Shown: piece after piece, positions 4,804 to 7,092 of the stretch
Layout of the letters: the number at the start of each line of letters is the position of its first letter
How positions within the stretch are numbered: position 1 is the first letter of the stretch
Origin: Acidobacteriota bacterium
Lineage (GTDB): Bacteria > Acidobacteriota > Blastocatellia > UBA7656
Direction: 5' to 3'
Assembly (NCBI GenBank): GCA_040754075.1
Contig: JBFMDH010000050.1
Coordinates: 1-33,415, forward strand
DNA length: 33,415 bases
Position numbers and translations under genes: made by a program
Notes under the pieces: model-generated
Databases searched by the model: none
What the model was told of the DNA's origin: nothing
What the model saw: the letters and a program-made list of their open reading frames with translations, nothing else

Positions 4804-6093
4804 ATGGAAAATTCTAATGATAAAAATCCATCGCGCAGAGATTTTTTGAAAACCTCTGCCGTTGCTATCGGCGCAACTGTCGCGACCAATCTAATCAACA
4901 ACGCTGCCTATGCGGCAGGAAGCGATGAAATTCGCATCGGCTTAATTGGTTGCGGCGGACGCGGCACCGGTGCAGTTGACAATGCTTTCAATGCAGCGCA
5001 AGGCGTTAAACTGGTTGCGATGGGCGATGCTTTTAAAGACCGAATAGAAAGTTGCAAAGCGGAACTTGGCAAGAAGAATGCCGATAAAATCAATGTGCCC
5101 AATGACCGTATGTTTGTTGGTTTTGATGCTTATGAAAAAGTCATCAACACCAAAGAGGTCAATTACATTATCCTGGCAACCCCGCCGGGCTTTCGTCCTA
5201 CACATTTGAAGGCAGCGGTCGCTGCCGGCAAAAATATTTTCACGGAAAAACCAGTAGCGGTCGATGGACCAGGGATTCGCAGCGTGCTTGAAACCTATGA
5301 ACAAGCGAAAGCAAAAGGCTTGGCGATTGCTGCCGGTACACAGCGTCGCCACCAGACCGGCTACCTGGAAACCATGAAATTGATTCACGATGGTGCTATT
5401 GGTGAAATTGTTGCCGCGCGCTGTTACTGGAATCAAGGCGGTTTGTGGAAGAAAGATCGCCAGCCGGGATGGAGCGATATGGAATGGCAATTGCGCAACT
5501 GGCTCTATTTTACCTGGCTTTCAGGCGATCATATCGTCGAACAACACGTCCACAACATTGATGTAGTCAATTGGGCGATGCAAGCGCATCCGGTGTCGGC
5601 AACCGGAATGGGCGGTCGACAATCCCGCACTTCGCCGGATTACGGACACATTTTCGACCACTTTGCCATTGATTACGAATACGAAAATGGTATGCACCTG
5701 ATGAGTATGTGCCGTCAGGTGGTTGGTGCGGATGGCAACGTTTCCGAAGCTCTGGTTGGCACTAAAGGCAAATGTCAGGTGAATCGTTATCAAATCACCG
5801 GCGCAAATCCTTGGCGAATGGAGCGTAAACAAGGCGACGATCCAGACCCCTATGTCAAAGAACATACCGATTTAATCGCCAGCATTCGCACCGCCAAACC
5901 AATTAACGAGCTTAAAAATGTTGCCGAAAGCACCCTTTCGGCAATTATGGGCAGAATGTCTGCCTATACCGGCAAAGTCGTAACCTGGGAAAAGGCGTTG
6001 AATTCTCAAGAGAGTCTGGTGCCGGCTAAACTTGATTGGGGACCGATTGCGGTTCCGGCAATTGCAATTCCCGGTCAAACCGTTCTCAGCTAA
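4804..6093 (+). CDS. Gfo/Idh/MocA family oxidoreductase, Tat-exported
   Basis: A 429-residue NAD(P)-dependent oxidoreductase of the Gfo/Idh/MocA family. The N-terminus carries a twin-arginine signal (SRRDFLKTSAVAIG) ending near AAYAAG. A Rossmann motif (IGLIGCGGRGTGAV) follows, then the family's EKP block (NIFTEKPVAVDGPG) and a substrate-domain histidine motif (GDHIVEQHVHNIDVVNW). Family members act on sugars or inositols; the substrate here is not visible in the sequence. AAGGAGAA lies just upstream of the ATG. Exported members with a TAT signal are common in Acidobacteriota, Planctomycetes and Bacteroidetes. A hairpin terminator follows at 6105, so it probably ends its own transcription unit. 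Possible functional pairing with the FGE-like gene before it is only inference. Confidence 0.92.
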   Translation: MENSNDKNPSRRDFLKTSAVAIGATVATNLINNAAYAAGSDEIRIGLIGCGGRGTGAVDNAFNAAQGVKLVAMGDAFKDRIESCKAELGKKNADKINVPNDRMFVGFDAYEKVINTKEVNYIILATPPGFRPTHLKAAVAAGKNIFTEKPVAVDGPGIRSVLETYEQAKAKGLAIAAGTQRRHQTGYLETMKLIHDGAIGEIVAARCYWNQGGLWKKDRQPGWSDMEWQLRNWLYFTWLSGDHIVEQHVHNIDVVNWAMQAHPVSATGMGGRQSRTSPDYGHIFDHFAIDYEYENGMHLMSMCRQVVGADGNVSEALVGTKGKCQVNRYQITGANPWRMERKQGDDPDPYVKEHTDLIASIRTAKPINELKNVAESTLSAIMGRMSAYTGKVVTWEKALNSQESLVPAKLDWGPIAVPAIAIPGQTVLS

Positions 6094-6104
6094 TCTTACT
6101 TTAA

Positions 6105-6157
6105 GAGGTGGTGAACCTTTCGTGAGTAGAAGATAATCACCACCTCCAGCTTTTTTT
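6105..6157 (+). terminator. Intrinsic terminator after the oxidoreductase gene
   Basis: A 10-bp perfect stem, 6105-6114 with 6137-6146, and a 22-base loop are followed by CAGC and seven T's. It starts 12 bases after the oxidoreductase stop codon. Confidence 0.8.
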
Positions 6158-6342
6158 GCCGCAACTCTTTCATCAAATCAAGCAGAAAAAAGAGTTAATG
6201 TTTATCTCAAAAACTTGAAAAAGGTTCCTTGGTAAAAATATTTTTCTGCTCTGGAGAAAAGAAATAACTTGTTTTATTGAAGGATTTACGCAGTGATAGT
6301 GAAAGTAACTTGAGAGCTTGATGTATTACTTTAACTTTTTTC

Positions 6343-6371
6343 TTGCATCTAGTGTAGGTATGTGATATAAC
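6343..6371 (+). promoter_or_regulatory. Sigma70-type promoter for the candidate RNA
   Basis: TTGCAT (6343-6348), a 17-base spacer and TATAAC (6366-6371) match the housekeeping consensus closely. The sequence upstream is AT-rich (TTTAACTTTTTTC), like an UP element. The expected start near A6380 is two bases before the first strong hairpin. Confidence 0.6.
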
Positions 6372-6379
6372 CTCGACCC

Positions 6380-6540
6380 ATAAACAACACCGCTTTATGT
6401 TCCTGCCATAAAGCGGCGTTGTTTCAGCAGTGCGCTGGATATGGAACATTCAGAAAGGGGGCTACTGGATGTTCAAGGGGGCTTGTCGATTCGACGATCT
6501 AGCGTACTGCATCATCATATCTTCGCTTCCTCGACAAGTC
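6380..6540 (+). ncRNA. Candidate pseudoknotted structured RNA (small RNA or dtd leader)
   Basis: No coding frame fits here. Reading the plus strand from the predicted start, I see four helices. P1 pairs 6382-6399 with 6407-6424 (18 positions, one A-C mismatch). P2 pairs 6427-6440 with 6497-6510 (14 bp, two G-U). P3 pairs 6444-6453 with 6465-6474 (10 bp, one G-U) and lies inside P2. An 8-bp helix, 6482-6489 with 6531-6538, crosses P2 to form an H-type pseudoknot. All three deviations in P2 and P3 are G-U in the plus-strand RNA and would be A-C in the other strand, which supports the direction. AAGGGGGCT occurs twice, in the P3 loop (from 6455) and before the pseudoknot strand (from 6475). I do not recognise a known RNA class. 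No strong terminator follows, so it may be the leader of dtd. Confidence 0.45.
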
Positions 6541-6562
6541 AATTACATCTTTCCAAACACCC

Positions 6563-6607
6563 AAATTAGTTACGAGATTTGCAAAATCGGCTAATTTTGC
6601 TTAAACA
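6563..6607 (+). promoter_or_regulatory. Mutually exclusive hairpins and possible weak dtd promoter
   Basis: AAATTAG (6563-6569) can pair with CTAATTT (6591-6597), or GCAAAAT (6581-6587) can pair with ATTTTGC (6594-6600). The two pairings share bases and exclude each other. The same stretch also holds a weak promoter-like pair, TTGCAA (6579-6584), 17 bases, TAAACA (6602-6607), with the dyad between the boxes. It could act as a switch in an mRNA leader or as an operator-promoter; the sequence alone does not decide. Confidence 0.3.
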
Positions 6608-6642
6608 TACAGCGTTGCCATCATTATTTGGGAGGAATTTCA

Positions 6643-7092
6643 GTGAGAGCGGTTATTCAACGGGTAAAAAGCGCCTGTGTCGAGGTAGATGAACAAATCG
6701 TAGGCAAAATTGCTCAAGGTTTATTGGTTCTGCTGGGGGTAGCTCGCGATGACACGCAGGCAGATGCCGATTATTTACTGGATAAAACCCTAAATTTGCG
6801 CATCTTTAACGATGAAGAGGGAAAAATGAACCGCTCTGTTCTTGACGCCGGTGGCGCACTGCTGGTGGTTTCGCAATTTACGCTTTACGGCGATGCGCGT
6901 AAAGGCCGTCGACCTTCTTATATTGAAGCCGCAGAACCTGAACGAGCGAATGCTTTGTATGAATACATTATTTCTGAGGCGAGGAAAAAGGGCTTAGCTG
7001 TGGAAACGGGCGTGTTTCAAGCGATGATGCAGGTCAATCTAATAAATGACGGGCCGGTGACTATATTGCTTGATAGTCGTAAAAATTTTTAA
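6643..7092 (+). CDS. dtd: D-aminoacyl-tRNA deacylase (D-Tyr-tRNA deacylase)
   Basis: A 149-residue DTD, the usual family length. It hydrolyses D-amino acids mischarged on tRNA, keeping D-residues out of proteins. The protein begins with VRAVIQRV, as in the family. It has the SQFTLYGD motif around residue 80 and the C-terminal [11 protein letters not shown] block; together these two loops form the cross-subunit active site of the homodimer. GTG at 6643 is chosen because GGGAGGA sits six bases before it; an upstream TTG at 6628 would put that ribosome site inside the gene. It converges on ftsH with a shared terminator between them. Confidence 0.95.

Follow-up and report, generated by a model that had tools for sequence, protein, structure and literature searches.

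The 550-base gap between a Gfo/Idh gene (4804-6093) and dtd (start near 6643) raises the question of whether it holds a leader of dtd or an RNA gene of its own and, in the latter case, which strand is read. The gap lies in the window, i.e. the whole 33,415-nucleotide stretch of DNA that was analysed (contig C50 of genome G000), which also carries, on the other strand, a gene that a reading of its protein marks as ftsH-like. The original prediction was that the gap encodes a structured RNA of no known class with a promoter of its own, either a small RNA or a riboswitch-like leader of dtd. The following features bear on this question.

6326-6339, plus strand: invariant 14-base box TTACTTTAACTTTT, immediately upstream of the plus -35 (100% identity in the seven type I loci)
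6343-6371, plus strand: promoter TTGCAT-17-TATAAC (-35 at 6343-6348, -10 at 6366-6371) with a TG extended -10; expected start near 6378
6382-6399/6407-6424: hairpin P1, 18 positions, one of them A.C in the window
6427-6440/6497-6510, plus strand: closing helix P2, 14 pairs
6444-6453/6465-6474, plus strand: hairpin P3, 10 pairs, enclosing a G-rich loop
6455 and 6475, plus strand: two copies of AAGGGGGCT in the window
6475-6483, plus strand: the second AAGGGGGCT, 3' of P3 and within P2, identical across the seven type I loci
6542-6514, minus strand: promoter TTGACT-17-TATGAT; expected start near 6507, in the 3' strand of P2

To assess the conservation of the element, we compared the window's genome with six relatives (seven genomes of one family, from five genera). 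Results of blastn searches showed that the element is present in all seven, with one full copy, termed type I, in each genome and 75-85% identity in the relatives. The plus promoter, the three helices and both AAGGGGGCT copies were found where they had been predicted, the promoter (with TATAAA as its -10 in three relatives) and the helices being kept in 7/7 genomes, and the three non-Watson-Crick pairs of P2 and P3 in the window are indeed G-U on the plus strand. In the alignment of the seven type I sequences (A6; 42 pairs), 93.9% of cells were paired over P1, P2 and P3 together, where cells stand for sequences, not events, and the sequences are related. Eight pairs had changed on both sides, compared with a mean of 2.8 in shuffled alignments, none of which reached eight (0/500), and 1-3 in slid controls. 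These compensatory changes, which the original prediction had named as evidence in its favour, fell in P1 (six) and P2 (two) and not in P3, which is 100% paired with G-U pairs as its sole deviations; P2 is paired in 96.9% of cells. Furthermore, the 131 bases from 6380 to 6510 fold on the plus strand with -60.8 kcal/mol (z -8.2), and none of 200 shuffled sequences folded as well. By its conservation, then, the RNA element is real.

Within the fold, the P1 stem varies while the core of its loop, AUGUUCCUGCCAU, is unchanged across the type I loci, and the G-rich loop of P3 reads AAGGGGGCUA in the window and UAGGGGGCUA in two relatives. The invariant P1 loop (6397-6411 in the window) also spells a four-codon start-stop frame, ATG TTC CTG CCA TAA (TAG in G005), in 7/7 type I loci, with no visible ribosome site upstream. 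Its AUGUUCC (6397-6403) has a complement in GGAACAU at the base of P3 (6443-6449); substitutions in G004 and G006 keep wobble pairs in this complementarity, and a P1-P3 contact or an alternative fold is therefore possible.

The element does not correspond to an RNA class in Rfam 15. There was no match in the window at gathering score, nothing was found at eight type I and type II loci (L011 left out), and the six matches obtained at a relaxed threshold within 6090-6700 were all far under the cut-off (drum RNA, for example, with 17 of 43 bits). 6S RNA (RF00013), which these genomes also carry as a conserved structured RNA gene of about this size, was rejected: it gave one match per genome at E<=1, over the cut-off in 4/7, but at other loci in all seven genomes. 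Literature searches covering RNAs of Acidobacteria and Blastocatellia as well as paired or convergent sRNAs gave, among their top results, no title or opening of an abstract that describes such an element; a survey from 2010, with 104 candidate structured RNAs, was left aside. The RNA family thus appears to be new, in the sense of being absent from Rfam 15 by these searches, and to have an unusual conserved two-promoter layout, its general kind being already known.

We next consider how widely the element occurs. A covariance model built from the seven type I sequences (R1) matched all seven family genomes and found no match outside them in 162 genomes of the class (strict filters, with scores computed for 20 candidates in each genome). 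When the filters were relaxed for a set of 16 genomes, the six relatives were matched and none of the ten others; G007, the sample's only additional member of the order, gave no match. A blastn search of 396 phylum genomes (E<=0.01), a draw that may omit the other four family genomes, matched five, including G000, G001 and G002; the two remaining matches were set aside as chance, consisting of 19 bases inside a reading frame that is rhomboid-like by a reading of its protein. A 17-base core pattern occurred at 42 places in the genome contig collection; six of these, spread over five family genomes, fit R1 (one is a partial copy). It also occurred at 15 places in viral contigs, none matching R1. 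Weak R1 rows (three with pattern places, two in the 16-genome search) were opposite-strand overlaps of known loci. The element is conserved, but was seen in one family only; the total sample comprises seven type I loci, two loci of a second type (type II, below) and one partial copy.

The genes around the element differ among genomes. dtd follows it in 2/7 genomes, the window (by Pfam) and G001 (by reading), where about 130 and 185 bases, respectively, separate P2 from its start, and no terminator was listed in between, as expected if the RNA were a riboswitch-like leader of dtd. However, dtd is absent downstream in the other 5/7 genomes, and in G002, G003 and G005 the next identified gene lies on the other strand. 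In G003 a PqqD gene stands on the left and, on the right and on the other strand, a gene whose protein has a borderline receiver-domain match and a sub-cut-off Zn-ribbon; G002 is alike by reading. In G006 the neighbours are a PqqD-like gene (by reading) and, on the right, the gene for the complex I 30-kDa subunit. In G005 (by Pfam, glycyl-type by reading) and G004 (by reading), the left neighbour is a class II tRNA synthetase gene, and on the right stand an MFS transporter gene on the other strand and an unassigned frame, respectively. Because of these differing neighbours, the element is not the leader of one particular gene, and a dtd leader is refuted as its general function; we consider the leader reading scarcely credible. 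The small RNA, the other option offered at the outset, is favoured by the same variation of downstream genes.

We also considered whether the locus is a short translated reading frame, with AGGGGG as its ribosome site followed by AUGUUCAA.... An ATG does stand 7 bases past AGGGGG in the seven type I loci, but the peptides would range from 19 to 61 residues with ends that are not conserved, the frame is shifted in G003, and the encoded residues diverge although the RNA helices hold. As no conserved reading frame was seen in the seven type I loci, translation is a very improbable explanation.

The original prediction treated the locus as one-stranded. Its plus promoter stands, but it overlooked an equally conserved promoter that faces it from the minus strand (6542-6514). 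This minus promoter was found in 7/7 type I loci as TTGACT, a spacer of 17 (18 in G006) and TAT(T/G)AT. Mean pairwise identity is 1.00 in its -35 (AGTCAA), 0.69 in the -10 region, 0.34 in the spacer and 0.40 just beyond; for the plus promoter, the -35 has 1.00 versus 0.63 in the spacer. Such islands of identity look like the trace left by a promoter that is used. The invariant box upstream of the plus promoter, in turn, may be an UP element or a regulator site. Since the minus promoter is directed back into the RNA, two complementary transcripts are expected, and it is probable that two complementary small RNAs are made, which control each other or other genes. The same arrangement, facing promoters over one non-coding locus, is present in the sequences of 7/7 type I and 2/2 type II loci. 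No conserved intrinsic terminator (GC-rich hairpin and U tract) was found after P2 on the plus strand or after P1 on the minus strand; P1 itself is terminator-like in 3/7 type I loci, on the plus strand in two of them (the window and G003) and on the opposite strand in G006, with just 3-4 consecutive T. In G003, a minus-strand tRNA gene (L010:1807-1880; Rfam tRNA, 70.9 bits) precedes the minus promoter by about 125 bases.

The minus promoter also bears on the H-type pseudoknot that had been predicted from an 8-base complement (6482-6489/6531-6538). The complement is present in the window, the only genome in which all eight pairs form; the six relatives have 6, 5, 5, 4, 4 and 6 of 8. Slid controls were mostly lower (0-5 of 8), and 67.9% of cells were paired compared with 27-45% in slid versions. 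However, the single pair that changed on both sides equals the shuffle mean of 1.0, and 386 of 500 shuffles matched the paired percentage. The 3' arm (6531-6538) sits in the minus-promoter spacer and two bases of its -35, whose invariant AG supplies two of the eight pairs, and the pseudoknot therefore looked plausible in one genome while failing in the others. The H-type pseudoknot is not supported.

In a search for the box and the plus -35 in eight genomes, allowing up to three mismatches (one match with the reversed pattern as control), the seven type I loci were recovered exactly and two new loci with two mismatches each, of which 0 and 1, respectively, lie within the 14-base box: G000:C34:24654 and G001:C10:90885. 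A further match with three mismatches (G006:C10) was unrelated and had no comparable element. The two new loci, termed type II, each contain P1, P2 and P3 and have promoters on both strands.

L110:1501-1735 (G000:C34:24654 onward): type II locus of the window's genome
L109:1290-1524, minus strand (G001:C10): type II locus of G001

Type II P1 is unlike that of type I in sequence, with a GUGGGG loop followed by GGUUUUAG. P2 is GUGCGC/GCGCAC (AUGCGC/GCGCAU in G001), and the P3 loop contains GUGGGGGCUA (a GGGGGCUA loop), with CUG(A/G)AUGUCAAGGG also present. A minus promoter, TTGACA-18-TATAAA, stands at the far side of both loci; the promoter scan accepted only -10 sequences ending in T and so did not list it. 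The plus promoter is TTGCAA-17 with a poor -10 (TATTTT or TAATGT). Comparison of the two copies shows three pairs with both sides changed, and the folds have z of -6.8 and -6.4. In the MAFFT alignment of both types (A4), part of type II seems to be wrongly placed relative to type I, and identities that include type II are rough.

A covariance model of type II (R2) gave two strong matches in 21 genomes and no further type II locus; a third match (E 0.035) fell in a helicase-like frame, the other 14 had E>=0.49, and the promoter pattern was found in none of the five of these 14 that were scanned. A gapped helix pattern, which cannot match type I loci because its first gap is too long, occurred at 14 places in 12 of 162 class genomes (19 places for the reversed control); two are the type II loci and the other 12 were judged, as a group and from their letters, to be chance. 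In G040, from another family of the class, 39 bases (L114, near 1501-1539) share 85% identity with the plus promoter region of type II, and no comparable element was seen downstream. TTTTCCACA, with TTTTCCAC/TTTTTCCAC nearby, is kept downstream of both type II loci (L110 about 1741; L109 about 1256, minus strand), where the surroundings differ; there is one TTTTCCACA per type II locus, and it resembles a DnaA box.

Reading direction can be inferred from substitution patterns and folding energies, as described for RNAstrand, and we examined both. The type I deviations in P2 and P3 comprise 15 cells of plus-strand G-U versus one of A.C, plus two other mismatches (11 versus one in P2 alone). In P1 they comprise four G-U versus 10 A.C/C.A cells, plus five other mismatches. 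Counted by column with type II included, the figures are 11 versus 2 for P2/P3 (binomial p 0.022) and 3 versus 7 for P1 (p 0.34), and the two differ (Fisher p 0.013), in a test that leaves out minor helices inside P2 (2 versus 0 cells) and whose columns, from related sequences, are partly dependent. The wobble deviations thus indicate that P2/P3 is kept as plus-strand RNA, and those of P1 lean, without significance, toward the minus strand. On the minus strand, 6380-6510 folds with -51.7 kcal/mol (z -7.4), and the plus-strand fold was the stabler in all four loci folded in both directions.

An alternative is that the plus RNA alone is functional, for example as a structured sRNA that binds a protein or target by its G-rich loops, and that the minus promoter serves solely to limit it, through transcription collision or as a roadblock at which the plus transcript, itself lacking an intrinsic terminator, would end. 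The wobble direction in P2/P3, the stabler plus folds in the four compared loci and the lack of a conserved terminator agree with this. Against it, the P1 deviations point the opposite way, although alone they are not significant, and the minus start, judged by spacing, coincides with the base of the structured domain in type I and type II alike; we regard the explanation as rather unlikely. Since the P2/P3 wobbles fit the plus strand and the plus folds are stabler, the minus RNA could nevertheless be only an antisense transcript, without selected structure of its own. Tentatively, and with more doubt than confidence, one may suggest instead that a single DNA element is selected as RNA on both strands, P2/P3 as plus RNA and the P1 hairpin as minus RNA, giving two folded sRNAs that meet via G-rich and C-rich loops, in two paralogous versions with unrelated P1 sequences and a common dual-promoter plan within one bacterial family.

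The reading that we favour, and consider fairly probable, is that of a stand-alone small-RNA gene read from both strands, encoding a family-restricted antisense sRNA pair in which one RNA is an effector in trans and the other its antagonist in cis. It draws on the helices and their conservation, the two conserved promoters, the paralogous locus of like layout and the varied neighbours; from these we infer that both RNAs are produced, where they start and end, which may be the effector and how they would pair. The plus RNA would start near 6378, fold P1 and then P2/P3, and expose two AAGGGGGCU stretches, while the minus RNA would start near 6507, read through P3 and P1, and expose AGCCCCCUU stretches on mirror-image domains. 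One of them would act in trans at ribosome-binding sites, pairing there via its short elements rich in G or C; the other, as the cis-encoded antagonist, would form a duplex that RNase III cleaves, interfere with transcription, or do both. The mirrored hairpins, with AAGGGGGCU on one RNA and AGCCCCCUU on the other, suggest loop contacts between the two, and pairing of the C-rich RNA to G-rich ribosome-binding sites.

Precedents exist for parts of this model. CJnc190/CJnc180 of Campylobacter jejuni, as described, follows the same antisense-pair logic (PMC8687705); likened to it by description, the present locus differs in that both promoters and the two-domain fold are conserved in a family and occur in two paralogous versions. 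SdsR/RyeA of Escherichia coli is described as two sRNAs that are cis-encoded with respect to each other and whose promoters show transcription interference (PMC6610125). There, SdsR has a sigma-S promoter and a terminator, whereas here both promoters are sigma-70-like, no conserved terminator was found and the element has no Rfam match. The Xanthomonas sRNA sX13 is reported to have stable stems whose C-rich loops are used against G-rich motifs near translation starts, with Hfq dispensable (PMC3771888). Comparable C-rich loops would be expected on the minus RNA; sX13 differs in having three stems and acting without Hfq, and beyond its description it was compared with the element by Rfam alone. 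In the cited reports, the antisense pairs (SdsR/RyeA, CJnc190/CJnc180) are single cases. If the favoured reading is true, a family-wide pair with both promoters visibly selected, joined by a paralogous second pair within one genome, would open the antisense partner's role to comparative tests, and would offer an entry point to sRNA regulation in a little-studied Acidobacteria lineage with Hfq, for which a match above the Pfam cut-off was present in 7/7 genomes.

Finally, the two palindromes, the differing genomic places of the loci and a second, partial copy in G001, found by blastn besides the full type I copy, could reflect a DNA-level or mobile feature, i.e. protein-binding palindromes, a remnant of plasmid-type copy control or a short repeat element, with the promoters incidental. 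Facing promoters are the arrangement of plasmid antisense control, and those of the present locus resemble it. However, searches of plasmid and phage collections gave no match to the element, one full type I copy per genome does not make a repeat family, the directional G-U pairs in P2/P3 indicate RNA, and ten neighbour proteins (one without a Pfam match) include no replication or transposase family. We therefore consider such a feature improbable. The partial copy in G001 (L015, about 1500-1570; G001:C46:107982-108044) covers the P2/P3 core with 89% identity over 63 bases, and neither facing promoter was found at it. It has a closing helix of its own, GCGCTGGT/ACCAGCGC, and lies between a lipoprotein-like frame on one side and, on the other, a frame of 479 residues that has no Pfam match.
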